64,000 bases of DNA from Alphaproteobacteria bacterium (GTDB taxonomy: Bacteria > Pseudomonadota > Alphaproteobacteria > SP197), in the NCBI GenBank assembly GCA_016869675.1, contig VGDP01000016.1, positions 1 through 64,000 on the forward strand, in the 5' to 3' direction. Under the pieces are notes generated by a model, which was given only the letters and a program-made list of their open reading frames with translations, had not been told where the DNA came from and ran no database searches. The translations under genes were made by a program, and so were the position numbers. Of the stretch, positions 2,751-39,670 are shown piece by piece; within the stretch, counting starts at the first letter, position 1, and the number at the start of each line of letters is the position of its first letter.

Positions 2751-3878
2751 ATGGCCCGGTTCCATGTTGCCGAGATCACTGGCACGGCGCGCGAGCGCGG
2801 CCGCGCGCACGGCGAGAGCCTGCGTGATGTGGTACGCGAGCGCGAGCGCCGCTGGCGCGCCGCGCTGGAAGCCAAGACCAAGTTGCCCGCCGACACCGTC
2901 ATCGCGCGGTTCCTCGCCGAGACCGACTTCGTGCCGGCGATTCGGCGCCAAACACACTATCTGCTCGACGAGGTGCGCGGTATCGCCGAGGGCGCCGGCC
3001 TGCCTTTCGACGCGGTGCTGGCGGCCCAGTTCATGGACGAGGAGTGGTGGTACACGGACGCGCTCGCGGACCCCCATCACTGCTCGAGCCTCGGCGCGCT
3101 CGACGCGGGCGCCGGGCGCGCGCTGGTCGCCCAGACCATGGATCTGGTTACCTGGACCGACGGCTTCCAGACGATCCTACGCCTGCGCGGCGCGCGGCCC
3201 GAGCAGGACGCCGTGATCCTGACCATGGCGGGCATGATCGGGCTGTGCGGCATGACCGCGGCGGGACTGGGTGTGTGCGTCAACACGCTCGCGCAACTCG
3301 CCAGCCGCCGGGAGGGCCTGCCGGTCGCCTTCGTGACGCGCGGCGCGCTGGCGTGCGCCACGGCGGCCGAGGCGGCCGGGTTCGTGCGCAGGGTGCCCCA
3401 CGCCTCGGGCCAGAACTACGTGATCGGCGACGGCCGTGACCTCTACGACCTGGAGGCCTCGGCCAACGCGGTCGCGACTCATGCGGACGGCGCGGGTCGT
3501 GGTCTGGTCGTGCGTCACACCAACCATCCGCTGACCAGCCGCGACCTGGGCCCGGCGCCCTACGACCCGGCCAGCGAGCGCGAGCGCCATACGGTGCGGC
3601 GCCTGGGGTCCCTCGTCGCGAGGCTGCCGGACAACGGGGACTCGGCCAAGGTCGCCACGGCATCCGTCGCCTTGGCGGCCCAGGACGACCCCGAGTTTCC
3701 CGTCGCCATCCCGGCCGCGTGGGCCGAGGCGAAGGGCCGCTCGTACTTCACCTTTGCCACGGTCGTCTGGGAACTGACGCCCACGCCGATCGCCCACATG
3801 GCGCCGGGGGCGCTGACCGAGCACCGGCTGGACGCCTTGCCCGTGGGTCGGGCCGGCGCGCGCGCTGCGGCCGAATAG
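2751..3878 (+). CDS. C45-family peptidase / acyltransferase-like Ntn hydrolase
   Basis: The 375-residue protein resembles the acyl-CoA:6-aminopenicillanate acyltransferase/C45 family. These Ntn hydrolases self-cleave before a Cys to expose the nucleophile. The likely nucleophile is the Cys in DPHHCSSLGA, about residue 110, a position typical of the family. Supporting segments are an N-terminal GTARERGRAHGES, the FMDEEWW region, and QNYVIGDGRDLYDLEAS downstream. Start ATG 2751 has AGGAGGA six bases upstream. No signal peptide is seen. The natural amide substrate is unknown; penicillin chemistry should not be assumed. It is likely co-transcribed with the upstream dehydrogenase. Confidence 0.82.
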   Translation: MARFHVAEITGTARERGRAHGESLRDVVRERERRWRAALEAKTKLPADTVIARFLAETDFVPAIRRQTHYLLDEVRGIAEGAGLPFDAVLAAQFMDEEWWYTDALADPHHCSSLGALDAGAGRALVAQTMDLVTWTDGFQTILRLRGARPEQDAVILTMAGMIGLCGMTAAGLGVCVNTLAQLASRREGLPVAFVTRGALACATAAEAAGFVRRVPHASGQNYVIGDGRDLYDLEASANAVATHADGAGRGLVVRHTNHPLTSRDLGPAPYDPASERERHTVRRLGSLVARLPDNGDSAKVATASVALAAQDDPEFPVAIPAAWAEAKGRSYFTFATVVWELTPTPIAHMAPGALTEHRLDALPVGRAGARAAAE

Positions 3879-3953
3879 GAATACGCCACCCGGGCCTACG
3901 CGGCCGGGGCGGTAGGAGTCTCGGTCGGTGAAGGATCGGAGCCGGGGACCGAA

Positions 3954-4568
3954 TTACTTCGAGTAGAACTCGATCGCCAGGTGCGGCTCCATGTGCACCG
4001 GGTAGGGCACGTCGGAGAACTGCGGCCGCCGGGTGAAGGTGCCCTTCATAGCCTTGTGATCGACCTCGAGATAGCTGGCCACGTCGCGCTCGGGCGACTG
4101 GGCCGACTCGAGCACAAGAGCCATCTCCTTGGCCTTGAGGCCGAGTTCGATCGTGTCACCTTCGGTGCACGAGTAGCTCGGGATCGACACGCGCTTGCCG
4201 TTGACGCGCACGTGGCCGTGGCTGATGAGCTGACGCGCCGACCACATCGTGGGCGCGAACTTCATGCGGTACACGAGCGTGTCCAGCCGGCTTTCCAGCA
4301 GGCCGATCAGGTTCTCGATGGTGTCGCCGCGGCGGCGCGACGCTTCCTCGTAGGTGCGGCGGAACTGCCGCTCGCTCATGTTGGCGTAGTAGCCCTTCAG
4401 CTTCTGCTTCGCCATAAGCTGCGTGCCGAAATCGGTCGGCTTCTTGCGTCGCTGACCGTGCTCGCCGGGGCCGTACTCGCGCCGGTTGGTCGGGCTCTTG
4501 GGCCGGCCCCACAGGTTCTGGCCGAAACGGCGGCAGATCTTGTACTTCGACGCCAGTCGCTTGGTCAT
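3954..4568 (-). CDS. rpsD: 30S ribosomal protein S4
   Basis: The product is 204 residues, full length for S4, a primary 16S rRNA-binding protein of the small subunit. The N-terminal part has the [10 protein letters not shown] segment. The S4 RNA-binding domain is clear ([20 protein letters not shown], then [13 protein letters not shown]), and the protein ends EFYSK. The ATG at 4566-4568 lacks a strong Shine-Dalgarno. It stands alone rather than in the alpha operon with rpoA, as is common in Alphaproteobacteria. Confidence 0.97.
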
Positions 4569-31966: not shown

Positions 31967-34912
31967 CTATTCGGCGGCGGCCGTCTTCAGGCTGTCCCAG
32001 TTGCGCCGCAGGATGCGCGCGGTGCGCTCGTACGTGGCTGGCAGATCGACACCCAGAGGGGCAAGCGACGACACGTCACCCGCCCGCGCGGCCTCCTCGA
32101 TCGCGGCCACGGTCCGCGTCAGGCCAAACAGGCCGAGCGACGCGGACGAGGAGCGCAAGTGGTGCGCCAGGGCCGCCGCACCCGCCAAGTCACCCGCCGC
32201 GATCGCCTCGCCTAATCGACGCACCTGGGACGGCGCGGTGTGGAAGAACAGGACGACGATCTCCGCCGTGCGTTCGTGTCCCAGGGCGGTGTAATCGTCG
32301 CGCAGGACAGCAGCCTCGACGGTCGCCTCGTCGTCCCCGACTCCTTCGTCGTTCTTGATGAACACCCGGTTGGTACCGCCCATGAGCGCGGCGTCGATCG
32401 CGGCACCGAGCGTCTCAGGGAACACCGGCTTGCCGACGAACGCGTTCATGCCCGCCGCCAGGTGCTGGTTGATCTCGTCGGCGAACACATGGGCCGACAT
32501 GGCCAGGATGGGCACGTCCTTGCGTGTCGGATCTGCGAGAGCCCGAATGGCGCGGGTCGCCGCCATGCCATCCATCCCCGGCATCGAGATATCCATGACC
32601 ACCAGGTCGTAGCGCCCGTCCGTGACGGCCTGGACCGCGGCGGCACCGTCGACCGCCAGGTCGACGCGGTGACCCATGCGCTCGAGGAACGTGCGGACGA
32701 CGATCTGGTTGACCTCGTTGTCCTCGGCCAGAAGCACGGCGAGCGCTGGTCGCAAGCGCGGCGGGTCTACGACGCTCGGGCTCGACACAGTGTCCGACGT
32801 CGCCCAAACAAACGGCAACACGACCGTGAACGCGCTGCCGACGCCCGGCGTGCTGACCACGGACAGGGTGCCGCCCATGGCATCGACCAGGCGGCGACAG
32901 ATGGCGAGACCGAGCCCGGCGCCGCCGCGTCGGCGCGCGATTGAAGGATCGAGCTGGGTGAACGGCTCGAAAATGCGCTCCAGCCCGGCCGCGTCGATAC
33001 CAATGCCGCTGTCGGTAACGACGAAGCGCAGCGCCGGACGTTCGGGGTCGGGGTCGGCGGCCACGGCGACGTCAAGGGTCACGGTTCCGCGCTCGGTGAA
33101 CTTGACCGCGTTGCCGACCAGATTGAGCAGGATTTGGCGCAGTTTGCCCTGGTCGCCAAGCAGCCGCGCCGGCACGATGTCGGCCACGTGCAGCGTCAGG
33201 GCTAGCCCCTTCTCGATCGCCACGGGGCGCATCAGGCCGACGATCACTTCGGCCGTGGCACGCGGATCGAAGTCGACCGCCTGGACGTCGATGCGCCCGG
33301 CCTCGATCTTCGAGTAGTCGAGGATGTCGTTGAGGATCGCGAGCAGCGTTTCGCCCGACGTCGCGGCGTACGCGAGATGCTTCCGCTGCGCATCGTCCAG
33401 GTCCGTGTCGTGCAGCAAGCGCAGCATGCCAAGCAAGCCATGCATGGGCGTGCGGATTTCGTGGCTCATGGTCGAGAGGAAGTCGGACTTGGCCCGGCTC
33501 GACGCCTCGGCCCGCTCGCGCGCGACGGCGTGGTCCGAGACTTCGTGCCGCAGCTGGATGTTGGCCTCGGTCAATTGCGCGGTCCGTTCCTTGACAAGGC
33601 GTTGCAGCTCCTCGCGGTGGGCGCGCAGCTCGGCGTTGACACGTTCGCGCTCGGCCTCCAGCTCGCGCTTGCGGTGCGCCTCGTCCTTGAAGAACTGCAC
33701 GGCACGCGACATCTCGGCCAACTCGTCGGACCCGTCGGTGTTGACCGTCACGTCCAGGTGTCCGCGGGCTAGATCGCGCGTCGTCGCCGCTAGCACCGCA
33801 AGGCGACGCGACACGCGCCGCTCCACATAGAACCAGAGGATCGCGCCGGACAGCGCCACGGCAGCGATGGACGCGGCGACGAGGCTGAGGAGGCCCACGT
33901 CCACCGCGCGTTTGGCCGAGGCGCCGGCGGCTGCACTGAAGGCCCCGGTCTCGGCCACCGCGCGGTCGACCAGATCGTTGAGGTTCGCCGCCATGCTAAC
34001 GCTTTCCGCTTCGAGCGCGCCGAGCTGAGCCCGGATCGCGGCCAGGTCGCGGCGCACATCGAACACGGCCGCCGGTTCGCCGGTACCGTAGGCGCGCAGG
34101 ACCGCCAACTGAGCCTCGGCCTGCGTGCGGCGCACCGGATCGGCAATGCTGCCGACACGCCGGATCAGCACCCGGAGGTGGCCGCTGAAGTCGGCTTCAA
34201 GCACATCGATCCAGGCCGTGTCGTCGGTCTTGCTGAGCTGATTCAACAGCAGGCCCACCTGAGACGCACGCAGGCGCAACTCGAACATGCGCTCCATCAG
34301 GTAGATGTCTTCCTCGATCAGTCGGTCGAGGGCGTCGTATGCCGGCTCGCGGTCGCCCGGCGCCTCGACTAGCGCGTAGAGGTTCGAGACCACGGCGCTG
34401 GCGCCCGACGAGGCGTTCGAGACCAGTGTCTCGGATAGGGCGGTCAGGCCGACCGCCGCGTCCAGCGCCCGCTGGGCCTCGGCATCGAACCGAGCGGCCG
34501 TCGCGATGCGCTTGGAGACCAAGGAATCGAGCCGACCGATGTTGGCACTCAGGCTGGCCACCAGGCGGTCGATAGCCGCCAGCGTCGCCACGTCCAGTGC
34601 GGAATCATCAAGTTGGCTGACGCGCGTCCGCAGCCTCGTAGCGTGCACCTCCAGCCACCCCATTCTCACCTGGCGCGTATGGTCGTCCTCGGCCGCGATC
34701 AGGTCCGACATCGCCGTCGCCAGTTTGATGCTGGACACGGCGACGCCATGGGCCGCCGCCACGCCGGGGATCGCGCGCTCGATCAGCGCCGACTGGGTCG
34801 AGGCAACATCGCGCAACCCGAACCAGCCGATCAGCCCGGAGATCGACGACAGGGCCGCGATGGCGAGAAACGCCAGGAACAGACGACCGCCGATGCCTAA
34901 CTTGCCGACCAT
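31967..34912 (-). CDS. torS: TorS-like hybrid sensor histidine kinase with receiver and HPt domains
   Basis: The 981-residue inner-membrane phosphorelay kinase has these parts in order: TM1 ~10-33; a long periplasmic helical sensor ~34-335; TM2 ~340-362; HAMP ~363-415; a coiled coil to ~470; HisKA with His484 (SHEIRTP); an ATPase domain ([33 protein letters not shown]); a receiver with Asp774 (VVMDISMPG) and Lys828; and an HPt domain with His917 ([12 protein letters not shown]). This is the full TorS layout. In E. coli TorS binds TorT and signals TMAO. The gene is convergent with torR and divergent from torT, unlike the enteric order. Confidence 0.9.
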
Positions 34913-34972
34913 GGTTTGATTACAGCGCGTTCCTGCGCTCCTGAGAAGCGGCTAAACTGGCGCGTGTCACAC

Positions 34973-36046
34973 ATGATGAGTTGCCGGGACTTCGCGCGCG
35001 CCGCAACGCTGGTGCTGGGCCTGTTCGGCGCGGCCGACGGCGCCCTTGCCTGGACGTTGGATTCGTGGAACCCGCCGTTCAGCTACGACAGCCCCAAGGC
35101 GGTGCTGGAGTATGCGCCGGTCGATCGTGCCGTCCGGCCATGGCGCCTGTGTGCTTCTTACCCGCACCTCAAGGATTCGTACTGGCTGAGCGTCAACTAC
35201 GGGATGGTCGAGGAGGCCAAACGGCTCGGGGTCGCGTTGCGTGTGGTCGAAGCCGGCGGGTACCCCAACTTGGAACGCCAGCGGGGTCAGATCGAAGCGT
35301 GTGTCAACGAAGGCGCCGACGCCCTGATCGTGGGGACCGTGTCCTACGACGGCCTGACCGACTTGGTCGAACGCCTGGCCACTCATCTACCGGTCGTCGC
35401 GGCGGTCAATGATATCGACAACCGGGGCATTGCCGCGAAGTCCGGCGTCTCGTGGGTCGACATGGGCCACGCCATCGGCGCGTACTTCGCCGCCATGCAC
35501 CCCAAGGGCAGCACTCCGGTGCGTGTCGCGTGGTTCCCCGGCCCGCGCGGCGCCGGATGGGTCGGCTTCGTCGAGCGCGGGTTCCAGGCGGCCATGGCCG
35601 AGAGCTCCGCCGAGATCGTCGTCACCAAGTGGGGCGACACCGGAACGGAGATCCAGCTCCTGCTGATCGAGGAGGCGTTGGAGGAACACCCGGATATCGA
35701 CTTCATCATCGGCAGCGCCGTGACCGCCGAGGCGGCGGTCGGCGTGCTACAGGCGCGTGGCCTGACGGGGCGGATCGGCGTGCTGGCCGACTACTTCACC
35801 CACGCGGTCTACCGGGGCATCAAGCGCGGCAAGATCATCGCGGCGCCGACCGATTCGGCCGTCATCCAAGGCCGGCTGGCGGTCGATCAGGCGGTTCGCC
35901 TACTCCAGGGCGACCTGACGGTGCCTCATGCCGGCCCACGCATCACCATCATGGATGCCGCGACGATCGACGGGTTCGATCCGGGATCGTCCCTGGCTCC
36001 CGCCTGGTTCTCCCCGACCTTCGTGGTCGAGCCGCCGCCGGACTGA
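34973..36046 (+). CDS. torT: TorT-like periplasmic TMAO-sensor binding protein
   Basis: The 357-residue periplasmic binding protein of the sugar-binding type I fold has a short signal peptide (TLVLGLFGAADGALA). Core segments closely match what I recall of E. coli TorT: RPWRLCASYPHLKDSYWLSV, NYGMVEEAKRLGV, VVEAGGYPNLERQ, and later THAVYRGIKRGKII. TorT binds TMAO and contacts the TorS sensor domain. No clear Shine-Dalgarno precedes the paired ATGs at 34973 and 34976; the first is given. It is divergent from torS with about 60 bases between. Confidence 0.88.
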   Translation: MMSCRDFARAATLVLGLFGAADGALAWTLDSWNPPFSYDSPKAVLEYAPVDRAVRPWRLCASYPHLKDSYWLSVNYGMVEEAKRLGVALRVVEAGGYPNLERQRGQIEACVNEGADALIVGTVSYDGLTDLVERLATHLPVVAAVNDIDNRGIAAKSGVSWVDMGHAIGAYFAAMHPKGSTPVRVAWFPGPRGAGWVGFVERGFQAAMAESSAEIVVTKWGDTGTEIQLLLIEEALEEHPDIDFIIGSAVTAEAAVGVLQARGLTGRIGVLADYFTHAVYRGIKRGKIIAAPTDSAVIQGRLAVDQAVRLLQGDLTVPHAGPRITIMDAATIDGFDPGSSLAPAWFSPTFVVEPPPD

Positions 36047-36073: not shown

Positions 36074-36694
36074 CTATCGGTCGCCCGAACCCTGGTCGGG
36101 CGTGCCGTCATCGTCGCCCGGCGCTTCAGTGCCCGGGGCGTCACCCAAACCCTGATCCGCCGTGCCGTCGTCGCCGTCACCATCGTCGCGGCTATCGTCC
36201 CTATCGTCGGCGCCGCCATCGTCATCGGCACCGGCGTCATCATCGCCGTCGTCGTCGCCGGCATCATCGCAGCCGTGGCCGCTGTTGGCGCTGCCCGGAC
36301 CCGAGTTGCCGCCATCGTCCGCGGGGTCGTCGCCCGAGCGTCCGCTGTTCCCGGACGAACCGGGGTCACTCGACGAGCCGCCCGAGTTGTCGCCGCCGGA
36401 ATCATCGCCACCCGAGTCGTCACCACCACCGGGGTCATCACCGCCGGGGTCATCGCCGCCGGAGTCGTCTCCGCCGTCGCCACCACCGCTGCCGTCGCCA
36501 CCGCCCTCGCCCGAGCCGCGATTGGCGTGCGCCGCCTTGAGCGCGATCGCGTTGTCGTAGAACTCCAACGTCACCGGCAGCGCTGCCACGATCGTAACCA
36601 CGGCCGCGCCGGCCAGCAGCCGGCCAGCCAGACGAACCAGTCGTCCCGCGCCACACACCGCGGGATCATTCTTAGTAATAAAAAGAACTTTCAA
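36074..36694 (-). CDS. Single-pass membrane protein with long Gly/Asp/Ser-rich acidic tail
   Basis: The product is up to 206 residues. A basic N terminus is followed by one hydrophobic helix (LLAGAAVVTIVAALPVTLEF). About 150 residues of low-complexity Gly-Asp-Ser sequence follow, with repeats such as GGDDSGGDDPGGDDPGG, ending in a Gly/Asp/Thr/Pro tail. The tail would be extracytoplasmic, highly negative and disordered, and may bind Ca2+. No family is recognised. Codons at the 5' end are AT-rich. The first in-frame start is TTG at 36694, almost on the predicted transcription start; a GTG near 36661 is an alternative. The nearby subtilase carries a similar acidic linker. Confidence 0.6.
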   Translation of the reverse strand: MKVLFITKNDPAVCGAGRLVRLAGRLLAGAAVVTIVAALPVTLEFYDNAIALKAAHANRGSGEGGGDGSGGGDGGDDSGGDDPGGDDPGGGDDSGGDDSGGDNSGGSSSDPGSSGNSGRSGDDPADDGGNSGPGSANSGHGCDDAGDDDGDDDAGADDDGGADDRDDSRDDGDGDDGTADQGLGDAPGTEAPGDDDGTPDQGSGDR

Positions 36695-36704
36695 TTTCGT
36701 TTTA

Positions 36705-36734
36705 CTTATAGAACCGACATTCTGTTTTTGTTAA
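36705..36734 (-). promoter_or_regulatory. Strong sigma70-like promoter for the Gly/Asp-rich gene
   Basis: On the minus strand TTAACA (36734-36729) and TATAAG (36710-36705) are separated by 18 bases within a markedly AT-rich island (~36660-36790). Transcription would start near 36698, only a few bases before the TTG at 36694, implying a leaderless message or a downstream start. Confidence 0.6.
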
Positions 36735-36869
36735 TCATCGATTAAACAAATAACGAATGGCAACAAAAAATATTACCCTTGTCGTCTATACAGATTTCAC
36801 GAGAAACGATGATGCTCTCGGACTGGAACGCGGAGGTCCCGCCTGGAGCGGCCCCACCAGAGCGAATAC

Positions 36870-38413
36870 TCAGTCGACCGCGCAGACGCCGTTCAACTTG
36901 GCTAGGCCCCAACCGTAGACATCGTCGCGGCCGGGGGCGCCAAGGTCGATCGCCTCGCGTTCGAGCCACGACACAGCTTCGTCGGGCGAAAGGTGGGCGA
37001 CGGTCGTTTCGGCCGCCAACAAGGCCGTGACGACGGGAGCCGCGAGCGAGGTGCCCGAACGGAGCATCGGCGTTGTGCCGTCGATCGTTGGAACGTCGAC
37101 GCCCGGTGCCGCCAGATCGATGTGGTCGCCGCGGTTGGCGCCGGGAAACGGATTGAACAGGCGGTCGATCGCGGTGACGGCGAGAACGCCATCATACACC
37201 GCCGGATAGGCCGGCGGCGCCTCGGGACCGCCGTGGCCCCCGCTGCAACCAGCATGGTGCCATGTTCGACGGCGCGGCGTACCGCGACGTTCATCAGCAC
37301 ATTGTCGCTGCCGGCCAGTGACAGATTGACCAAGCTGACGCCCGAGCCCACCAGCCAATCGAGCACCTCGGCGATCGAGGATGCTGTGGTGATGGTGGTG
37401 CCATCGTCGGCGAGCTGAAACACCGAGGCGACGCGCAACGACGAGCCGGGCACCAAGCCCGGGACCGCGTCGGCGCTAAGCAGCATCGCCGCCGTGCCCG
37501 TACCGTGTCCGGGATCGGCCGGGACGCCGTCGCCGATGAAGCCCTGCTGCACCACGTTCGCATCGGGCATCGCCGCGGTATCCACCGCAGTGTCCACCAA
37601 ACCGATGACACGGCCCGCGCCACAGTCGGCCACGCTGCTGTTCCACCCCACCATGCCGGCTGGATGATCCGCCGCAATGTCGGCCGACACGCTTTGGGAA
37701 CGGTAGACCGCGTTGACGTCGACCAGCAGCCCGGGAAAGGTCGCGCGCAACTGCCGGATCGCCTCGACAACGCCCATTTCCGCGGGCACGCACAGGCGGG
37801 TTATGGTGATCTTAAGGACGGAAAGCGGGCGCTGCTCGCGGACCGTCAGCCCGAGAGCGCTGGCGCCTTCGATGACATCCGGTCGGTCGTCGACCACGAC
37901 GATCTCGTGGGCCAAATGCTCGCCACCGCCGCCACCGCGGTCCGTCCCGGTCACACCTGCGCCGGCAACGCTTGCCGTGCCCGAGGCGACGCTCGCCTTG
38001 GCGCGGGCTACGCCGGCCGCTAGGGCGCCTTCGTCGTCATCCTCGGCGGGTTCGGCGATGTCCGTCTCGTTGTTGTCGTTCTCAGGGTCGTCGTCGCCGC
38101 GTTCGCCGGTCTTGCCGCTGTTGCTGCTGCCCTTGCCGGAATTGCCGCCGTCGTCGCCGCCATCATCCCCACCATCGTCGCCGCCTTCGCCCTTGCTGCC
38201 CTTGCTGCCCTTGCCGCCGCCATCGGACGAGCCCTTGCCCAGCCCGCGATCGGCCATGGCCATCGACGGGTCGAGGATGATGGCCACGGCGGCCAAACCC
38301 ACAAGCAGGGCCGCCGTAACGGCGAAAGCGGCTAGCGGCCGCGCCCACCAGTGATGGTTAGAGAATCTAGTCCCCTGGCCCGGCTTGGACCGACAAGGCC
38401 GCCCAATGGCCAT
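36870..38413 (-). pseudogene. Membrane-anchored S8 (subtilisin-like) serine peptidase, frameshifted
   Basis: One membrane helix (RPLAAFAVTAALLVGLAAVA) is followed by a Gly/Lys/Asp/Ser-rich linker (KGSKGSKGEGGDDGG) and a subtilase domain. The triad is visible: Asp in VIGLVDTAVD, His in DPGHGTGTAAML, Ser in RSGTSLAAPVV. The first two and the oxyanion region are in one frame. At ~37248, in GCGGGGGCC, the frame must shift by one base to continue GGPEAPPAYPAVYDGVLAVT through the Ser to the stop at 36870. A missing G in the run explains this. The gene follows an ECF sigma/anti-sigma pair and overlaps the anti-sigma end by 47 bases. Confidence 0.78.
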
Positions 38414-39038
38414 CCGCGCCGTGGCACGCGACGCCAACGGTGGCGATGGTCGCCGCGGCGTGCGCGACCTCGTCGCGGAACCCGCGACAGACGAGCCCTT
38501 CGGGCCCGTCGACCGCTTCCAAGGGTGTGAACCGCGCTGTGACCCCAAGATCGGACCGCTCGTAGTCCACGGCAACACCGGCCACCCCGGTCTCTAGCGC
38601 CGCGACCTGAACGGGCAGCAAACTGCCCGCCGTGGCCGGTTGCGCCGTCGGCGTCACCGACGCTGGCATGTAGACGTCCTCGACGATGGGCGCGTCGACG
38701 CGGCCAAGAGCCACGCCCATAACCAGCGTCGCGGCGCATGCCGCCGCCACCGTCAATGGCCCGAAACCGCGCTGCCCAACCGACGTCAGGGCCTGCCTCC
38801 ACCACGGTTGCGGGCGAACACGCGACGCTGTCGCCGTCTCGGTACGCGCAGCCTCGAACAGCTCGAGGAGACGTTCGGGCACCGGCCGATCGAAGACCTC
38901 ATCGTACGCGCCCTGCAAGGCACGTGCGCTCTGATGCATCAGCCGCACCTTCTCGTTCACTTCGGCGTCGGCGCGCAACCTCCGCTCCACCTCGCGGCGT
39001 CGCTGCGGGTCGAACTCTCCATCCACATAGGCAACCAA
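38367..39038 (-). CDS. Anti-sigma factor
   Basis: The ~223-residue protein has a cytosolic N-terminal sigma-binding segment (VAYVDGEFDPQRRREVERRL, the form seen in many alphaproteobacterial anti-sigma factors). A membrane helix follows (PLTVAAACAATLVMGVALG), then a periplasmic domain with two Cys (GLVCRGF, GVACHGADG). The annotated TTG at 39038 would remove the usual first helix. The frame is open upstream to ETLDDALLVAYVDG, and an AGGAG precedes an ATT near 39066, so a non-ATG start there is possible. It lies directly after the ECF sigma gene and before the subtilase. Confidence 0.82.
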   Translation of the reverse strand: MVAYVDGEFDPQRRREVERRLRADAEVNEKVRLMHQSARALQGAYDEVFDRPVPERLLELFEAARTETATASRVRPQPWWRQALTSVGQRGFGPLTVAAACAATLVMGVALGRVDAPIVEDVYMPASVTPTAQPATAGSLLPVQVAALETGVAGVAVDYERSDLGVTARFTPLEAVDGPEGLVCRGFRDEVAHAAATIATVGVACHGADGHWAALSVQAGPGD

Positions 39039-39081
39039 CAGCGCGTCGTCCAGGGTCTCGAAAATTGTTTCTCTTCAGCTC

Positions 39082-39609
39082 CTAGCCGCCCGACGCCGCC
39101 TGACCGACCGATTGCCCGAGCGCCAGACGCGCACGGGCCAGTCGGCTCATCACGGTTCCGATCGGAACCGACAGCACGTTCGCCGCCTCGCGGTAGGACA
39201 TGCCGTCAACGGTAACCAACATCAACACCGCCCGCTGTTCCTCGGGCAGCTTCGCCACGGCGCGCCGGACCTCGCCCAGGCACAGGCGCGCCTCGTCATC
39301 GCGCACGCCGTCGGCGCCGTGCAGTTCGCCGATCTCTTCGATCGGGACGCTGATCCCGCGCCGCTGACGTACGCGCCGGCGATCGATCCACACGGTCTGC
39401 ATGATGCGGAACATCCAACTGTTCAGCCGTGTCCCAGGCTCGAATTGGTTCATGCGTGAGAGCGCACGTTCGCAGGCGCTCTGCACCAAGTCGTCACCGT
39501 CGTCCACGGACCCCGTGAGGCCATAGGCGAAACGGCGCAACCTGGGAAGCAGGGCAATCAGTGCGTCGTGCGTCGTCCTGTCTATGGTCTCGGTTCGGCG
39601 TCGCGACAC
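39082..39609 (-). CDS. ECF RNA polymerase sigma factor
   Basis: The 175-residue sigma-70 ECF factor has region 2 (DGDDLVQSACERALSRMNQF; RLNSWMFRIMQTVWIDRRR). Region 4 reads LPEEQRAVLMLVTVDGMSYR, then EAANVLSVPIGTVMSRLARA, a clear helix-turn-helix. The start is GTG 39607-39609. It heads a unit with an anti-sigma factor and a membrane subtilase. It probably autoregulates the unit, though no promoter could be confirmed. Confidence 0.92.
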   Translation of the reverse strand: MSRRRTETIDRTTHDALIALLPRLRRFAYGLTGSVDDGDDLVQSACERALSRMNQFEPGTRLNSWMFRIMQTVWIDRRRVRQRRGISVPIEEIGELHGADGVRDDEARLCLGEVRRAVAKLPEEQRAVLMLVTVDGMSYREAANVLSVPIGTVMSRLARARLALGQSVGQAASGG

Positions 39610-39670
39610 CCCAACAACGCCGCGACGACCGATCTATTCCGACATTGCCGCAACAGGTGCGGCCAATCTG

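Follow-up and report, generated by a model that had tools for sequence, protein, structure and literature searches.

An ECF26-type sigma factor unit with a subtilisin-like protease and a low-complexity, putatively exported partner in an alphaproteobacterium

The window, a stretch of 64,000 nucleotides from an alphaproteobacterial assembly (GCA_016869675.1, contig VGDP01000016.1, positions 1 to 64,000), encodes on its minus strand an extracytoplasmic function (ECF) sigma factor, an anti-sigma factor, an S8 (subtilisin-like) peptidase, and a glycine- and aspartate-rich (GD-rich) protein. All four, proposed in a first-pass annotation of the DNA, are present according to Pfam matches and open reading frames (ORFs). 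They probably belong to an ECF26 envelope-response module that exports a subtilisin-like protease together with a disordered protein of the surface or matrix. The core of sigma factor, anti-sigma factor, and S8 protease is already known, and the low-complexity partner is what is new. The earlier statement that the set has no described function is correct for function but not for the ECF26-anti-sigma-serine-protease arrangement, which has been described (PMC6180224). Judged from sequence comparisons, the pairing of the protease with the GD-rich gene is a real regulatory and evolutionary association. The unit has the following features:

39616..39640, minus: perfect (10/10) ECF26-type promoter in front of the ECF gene, GGAATA-N15-CGTT
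39082..39609, minus: ECF sigma factor of the ECF26 type, with an uncertain GTG start
38367..39038, minus: single-pass membrane anti-sigma factor, directly downstream of the ECF gene
36870..38413, minus: S8 (subtilisin-like) protease gene, frameshifted; signal or transmembrane segment, GD-rich linker, propeptide-like domain, catalytic domain
38065..38254 (approximate ends), minus: low-complexity protease linker rich in GD, K, and S, DRGLGKGSSDGGG...GGDDGGDDGGDDGG...DDDPENDN
37226..37249, minus: frameshift site, where frame A gives way to frame B within the region that encodes the VAAGN oxyanion motif
36752..36776, minus: ECF26-like promoter GTAATA-N15-CGTT (9/10), 57 bp before the TTG start of the GD-rich gene
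36074..36694, minus: GD-rich low-complexity protein, predicted to be secreted; read from a TTG or, alternatively, from a GTG at 36658
36074..36172, minus: C-terminal motif region DDGTADQGLGD ... GDDDGTPDQGSGDR; the double motif also ends the Dongia homologues

ECF26 promoters and low-complexity partner genes

The ECF gene product matches the Pfam models Sigma70_r4_2 (E=1.8e-16) and Sigma70_r2 (E=6.6e-12). The ECF26 promoter consensus consists of a -35 element GGAATA and a -10 element GT (PMC6180224), and the promoter of the window ECF gene has the same 15-base spacer as the published promoter of Sinorhizobium meliloti SMa0142. The window ECF aligns to the Sinorhizobium RpoE6-type ECF with a score of 169 bits and to every other ECF encoded in that genome with 108 bits or less, in a comparison in which RpoE1/3/4 were not individually labelled; the ECF tree is long-branched, with some open forks. 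Because of the perfect promoter with its 15-base spacer and the difference in bit scores, we assign the sigma factor to group ECF26. The promoter of its own operon, the sequence, the downstream membrane anti-sigma factor, and the neighboring serine protease, here co-directional and frameshifted, all agree with this group. The 3.49 Mb genome contains nine perfect ECF26 sites (N15 or N16) versus none with the reversed pattern, and the majority of the remaining sites have no clear gene behind them.

The transmembrane segment of the anti-sigma factor lies around GFGPLTVAAACAATLVMGVALG, a hydrophobic stretch judged by eye. The protein matches an NCBIfam anti-sigma model with E=8.9e-7, which is below the cutoff, and has weak sub-cutoff matches to NepR and 17kDa_Anti_2. 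An EcfG/NepR general-stress reading, based on matches to PhyR_sigma2 and NepR, was dropped in favor of ECF26. Of the NepR anti-sigma factor and PhyR partner that mark ECF15/EcfG, NepR reached 19.7 bits against its cutoff of 25.7, on a transmembrane protein, and PhyR was not sought genome-wide. Two further loci, L007 (41-700) and L008 (128-985), encode, upstream of S8 proteases, anti-sigma-like proteins with ectodomains that resemble subtilisin propeptides and possibly bind the protease.

Differences among the GGDD-encoding units of the GD-rich ORF occur 33 times at the third codon position, five times at the first, and never at the second. This bias, together with homologues in seven further genomes, identifies the ORF as coding by sequence criteria. 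The GGDDxGGDD repeat pattern is found in the window genome only in this gene, and searches of Pfam and NCBIfam returned no model for its product. A degenerate DNA pattern of the DGTxDQG motif detected six of 385 genomes of the class (that of the window, four Dongia, and G166), and loci with ECF26 sites contributed two more (G408 and G417), so that the family comprises eight genomes. The eight-member alignment has a common signal sequence ending in AxA, a middle part rich in G, D, and S, and the motif DDGT[A/P]DQGxGD, and the window protein fits it; in the G408 and G417 copies the motif is located on the N-terminal side of the low-complexity part. The GD-rich gene is adjoined by a divergent pair, a TorS-like hybrid histidine kinase (31967-34912, minus strand) and a sugar-binding, TorT-like periplasmic protein (34916-36046, plus strand).

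A protease profile detected relatives across many genomes of this class, as well as a named set of 80 loci. The linkage of ECF, anti-sigma, and S8 genes recurs in rhizobia, Rhodospirillales-type metagenome-assembled genomes, Dongia, and some Gammaproteobacteria. The protease gene is either divergent from the ECF gene, as in rhizobia and many others, or co-directional with it (window, L009/L082, L046/L083, L105/L179, L180, L181, and Dongia). ECF26 sites with at most one mismatch lie before the S8 gene in 44 of the 66 ECF-S8 loci, before the ECF gene in 31, and before a low-complexity secreted gene in 24, in 22 of which the site is perfect; this last tally includes Dongia FecR-domain genes. Twenty shuffled motifs used as a control gave 0-2 low-complexity matches, and none with a perfect match. 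ECF26-type promoters thus precede the ECF gene and, in relatives, low-complexity genes, which supports the earlier proposal that the set is governed by the ECF factor.

The low-complexity secreted proteins that adjoin the co-directional units are rich in glycine and asparagine (GN) in four Dongia loci, in GD/E in L046, and in GD in the window. Promoters of these partner genes are perfect in the Dongia loci (L010, L043, L049, and L051) and match at 9/10 positions in L046 and the window. Rhizobia, Elioraea, Taklimakanibacter, and others have an (SSSN)n secreted protein as the partner. Proteins of this (SSSN)n type are encoded at L098, L103, L106, L109, L112, L113, L115, L118, L121, L123-L125, L127, L131, L138, L140, L142, L147, L156, and L158, nearly always behind a perfect ECF26 promoter. 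Tested members of the DGTxDQG, (SSSN)n (one tested), and LGKLNGFxHASP families have no Pfam or NCBIfam model, and a literature search on the (SSSN)n motif or DUF6065 found nothing. The homologues of G408 (L219) and G417 (L224), the genomes of units L180 and L181, are encoded distally from those units under perfect ECF26 promoters, with 61 and 79 bp between the site and the likely ATG.

Other secreted families were observed at related loci. In L109, L140, and L156 the S8 protease gene is flanked, on the other strand, by a gene for a small D-rich secreted protein, accompanied in L140 and L156 by a perfect ECF26 site. Loci L166-L173 hold an alphaproteobacterial secreted family with an AKGGGG../GN-rich stretch and an LGALNAAHASxxAxxNAAPNSxVG domain, distantly related to the Dongia partner; the members tested have no Pfam or NCBIfam model, and no ECF26 promoter is present.

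The S8 protease and its low-complexity linker

The C-terminal frame of the window protease matches Pfam Peptidase_S8 with E=3.4e-10. The first-pass annotation described a membrane subtilase with a GGDDGG-rich linker; the linker is present, but the catalytic motifs are divided between two frames rather than contained in one open gene. Frame A (ORF 36902-38578, likely start ATG 38413) holds the Asp and His, and frame B (36870-37358) holds the Ser (SGTSLAAP). The catalytic core is covered by a single open frame in 65 of the 66 ECF-linked S8 loci, with Asp, His, and Ser together in all 65, and the window is the sole exception. As assembled, the gene may be either a pseudogene or the product of an assembly error. 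Programmed frameshifting seems unlikely, since the relatives all have an open frame and the site shows no clean slippery heptamer.

Relatives of the protease usually consist of a signal or transmembrane segment, an acidic or G-rich low-complexity linker, a propeptide-like domain, and a catalytic domain. The model of the intact orthologue from L082, with a mean predicted local distance difference test score (pLDDT) of 75, has a transmembrane helix formed by residues 21-36, a disordered segment (residues 37-163), a prodomain (residues 168-249), and a catalytic domain after residue 274. Its best match in the PDB is unprocessed pro-subtilisin E (3whi). The closest NCBIfam S8 models are those of processing proteases (mycosin, QhpE, and PatA), every one below cutoff. 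The N-terminal hydrophobic segment of the window protease ends in a signal-peptidase-like A-x-A, as does that of the GD-rich protein (AMA/DRG, AHA/NRG), and therefore both proteins may be secreted rather than anchored. Thus, of the membrane-anchored GD tail envisaged previously, the hydrophobic N-terminal segment is present and the anchoring is uncertain.

The similarity of S8 linker and partner, calculated from composition excluding glycine, is 0.88 for pairs from the same locus versus 0.63 for all pairs. The exact permutation p is 2.5e-5 for the eight co-directional loci and 0.0014 for six lineages. The test is limited by the common ancestry of the loci, and the segments were delimited by hand. 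The match noted initially between linker and partner therefore holds within the clade of the window and fails as a general rule: rhizobial ECF26-S8 loci combine D/G-rich linkers with (SSSN)n partners, and a universal match was rejected for this reason.

A co-exporting module and its alternatives

In the mechanism that we favor, the membrane anti-sigma factor would hold the ECF26 sigma factor until its release, presumably in response to an envelope signal. The freed sigma factor would activate its own operon (ECF, anti-sigma, and S8 protease) and the gene for the disordered, acidic, G/D-rich exported DGTxDQG protein. The protease, which carries an I9-like propeptide and a long, disordered GD linker, would cross the inner membrane, and the partner would be exported through a similar signal sequence. 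Both proteins most likely act on one common structure, whether in the periplasm or at the cell surface, and the protease may trim or remodel an envelope or matrix layer that includes the disordered protein. Computation supplies the gene identities, the ECF26 promoters, the homology of the GD-rich gene, recurrent co-regulation, and the composition match in this clade, whereas the signal, the export and co-localization of the proteins, and any contact between them are what we infer here. A role at the cell surface or in a matrix is pointed to by the ECF26 promoters that precede genes for giant repeat adhesin-like and FecR-domain proteins in Dongia (L010, L043, and L051) and, as a perfect site, the gene for an RTX Ca2+-binding protein in G004 (L202). 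Dongia L010 also carries a TadG-like gene, and a CHASE2-cyclase-like gene is located nearby in the L010/L043/L051 set.

Several observations weigh against this interpretation. Apart from the frameshift in the window protease, the promoter of the window GD-rich gene deviates from the conserved GGAA core and is possibly a weak one, with a chance probability of about 0.02 in that intergenic region. The Dongia copies of the DGTxDQG gene are distal and have no ECF26 site. In G166 (L249) an S8 protease with a G/D linker adjoins a DGTxDQG gene, and no ECF or anti-sigma gene was seen in the stretch. Partner families vary by clade among GD, GN, and SSSN. Three related units (L105/L179, L180, and L181) have no adjacent partner, by which an obligatory adjoining partner was ruled out. 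Loss of the GD-rich gene from relatives that keep the unit had been named beforehand as evidence against the pairing; on this point the result is mixed, with none adjacent in these three units but distal copies in G408 and G417. In the nearest relative (L009/L082) the contig stops 370 bp beyond the protease gene, and the rest of this 92%-complete genome gave no match to the exact DGTxDQG motif.

It is quite possible, if somewhat short of an even chance, that the module is decaying, and that the unit no longer works in the window genome though those of its relatives do. The frameshift within a catalytic motif would then mark a pseudogene, and the mutated -35 element a GD promoter that has drifted. 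Against this, the ECF and anti-sigma genes are intact, the ECF promoter is perfect, the remainder of the protease frame is undamaged, and a single frameshift is also common as an assembly error.

That linker and partner resemble each other in composition within a genome would also fit a protease and its substrate. In that case the S8 protease would recognize either the DGTxDQG tail or the low-complexity segment common to both proteins, and process or shed the GD-rich protein, much as it may process its own linker. The N-terminal regions of protease and partner are alike in L046 (LLSSVSLFALAT.. versus LLSSVSLFTLAT..), the DGTxDQG motif is conserved in an otherwise variable protein, and the nearest NCBIfam models, below cutoff as they are, belong to processing proteases. 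However, subtilisins rarely favor D/G-rich sites, and the SSSN-rich partners of rhizobia do not resemble the D/G-rich linkers. We regard such a relationship as rather unlikely. A compositional address code, in which a disordered linker and a separate, co-regulated disordered partner of matching composition (GD-GD, GN-GN, or GE/GS-GE/GS) concentrate or direct the protease at a surface layer made by the partner, is in our view an unlikely use of the match.

The GD-rich protein is very acidic, and its DxDGxPD core resembles by eye a thrombospondin type-3 (TSP3) Ca2+ loop. It could accordingly be imagined to bind Ca2+ and form a matrix that holds the protease through like-with-like linker contacts, and the perfect ECF26 promoters of the G004 RTX gene and of the Dongia giant adhesin-like genes are consistent with such a scaffold. 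Nevertheless, the Pfam search of 36074-36694 for TSP3 or RTX Ca2+-binding repeats gave no match even at E<=1, and a TSP3 or RTX identity was dropped for want of profile support. Acidic glycine-rich stretches need not bind Ca2+ specifically, and the GN-rich partners of Dongia carry much less charge in their repeats. We consider the scaffold quite unlikely. Finally, the GD-rich gene could be a separate envelope gene beside the ECF26-S8 unit, with the composition match due to lineage bias, as its degenerate promoter, the distal Dongia copies without sites, and the three units without an adjacent copy would allow; this is improbable given the distal homologues under perfect ECF26 promoters in two genomes, the adjacency that recurs in G166, the shuffled-motif control, and the permutation test.

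The preferred reading, co-export of the protease with a disordered protein under ECF26 control, has consequences beyond the window. Loci that combine ECF26 with a serine protease are common in many bacteria, rhizobia among them, and the recurrent control of an exported low-complexity protein is the first common output to test for them. Matched linker and partner composition, if functional, would be a simple bacterial way to localize a secreted protease.

Comparison with known systems

The protease shares with the subtilisin family S8A (pro-subtilisin E, fervidolysin, and thermitase) the Asp, His, and Ser motifs and, in the intact orthologue, the propeptide-like domain and the catalytic fold. 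It differs in the N-terminal transmembrane or signal segment and the disordered acidic linker of about 75-130 residues, which are added before the propeptide.

The Dongia ECF26-S8 loci (L010, L043/L146, L049, and L051) have the same co-directional order of ECF, anti-sigma, and S8 genes, a matched low-complexity linker and secreted partner, and ECF26 promoters. In contrast to the window, their linkers and partners are GN-rich rather than GD-rich, and the partner bears an LGKLNGFxHASP C-terminal domain, which among 387 genomes was matched strongly by these four alone. The FecR and giant adhesin-like genes are present at three of these loci, L049 being the exception, and the DGTxDQG homologues are located elsewhere in the genome, without an ECF26 promoter.

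In S. meliloti, the gene of RpoE6 (group ECF26) is divergent from that of the serine protease SMa0142, an arrangement called widely conserved in ECF26, and overexpression of RpoE6 activates SMa0142, ecfR6, SMa0146, and SMa0148 (PMC6180224). The L098 promoter is identical to that of SMa0142 (GGAATA-GACCGACGACTCAGC-CGTT), and, judging from gene order and promoter, the L098 (SSSN)n secreted gene appears to occupy the place of the published RpoE6 target SMa0146. Locus L098 also encodes a DUF6065 protein (3834-4547, SMa0148-like) behind a perfect ECF26 promoter, and homologues of it recur in rhizobial loci. Common to the RpoE6-EcfR6-SMa0142 system and the window unit are an ECF26-type sigma factor, a membrane anti-sigma factor, S8 proteases from one family, promoters of the form GGAATA-N15-CGTT, and a regulon that includes a low-complexity secreted gene. 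Whereas the S. meliloti protease is divergent and intact, that of the window is co-directional and frameshifted, and the partner is an (SSSN)n protein adjoining the anti-sigma factor in S. meliloti and a GD-rich DGTxDQG protein beyond the protease in the window.

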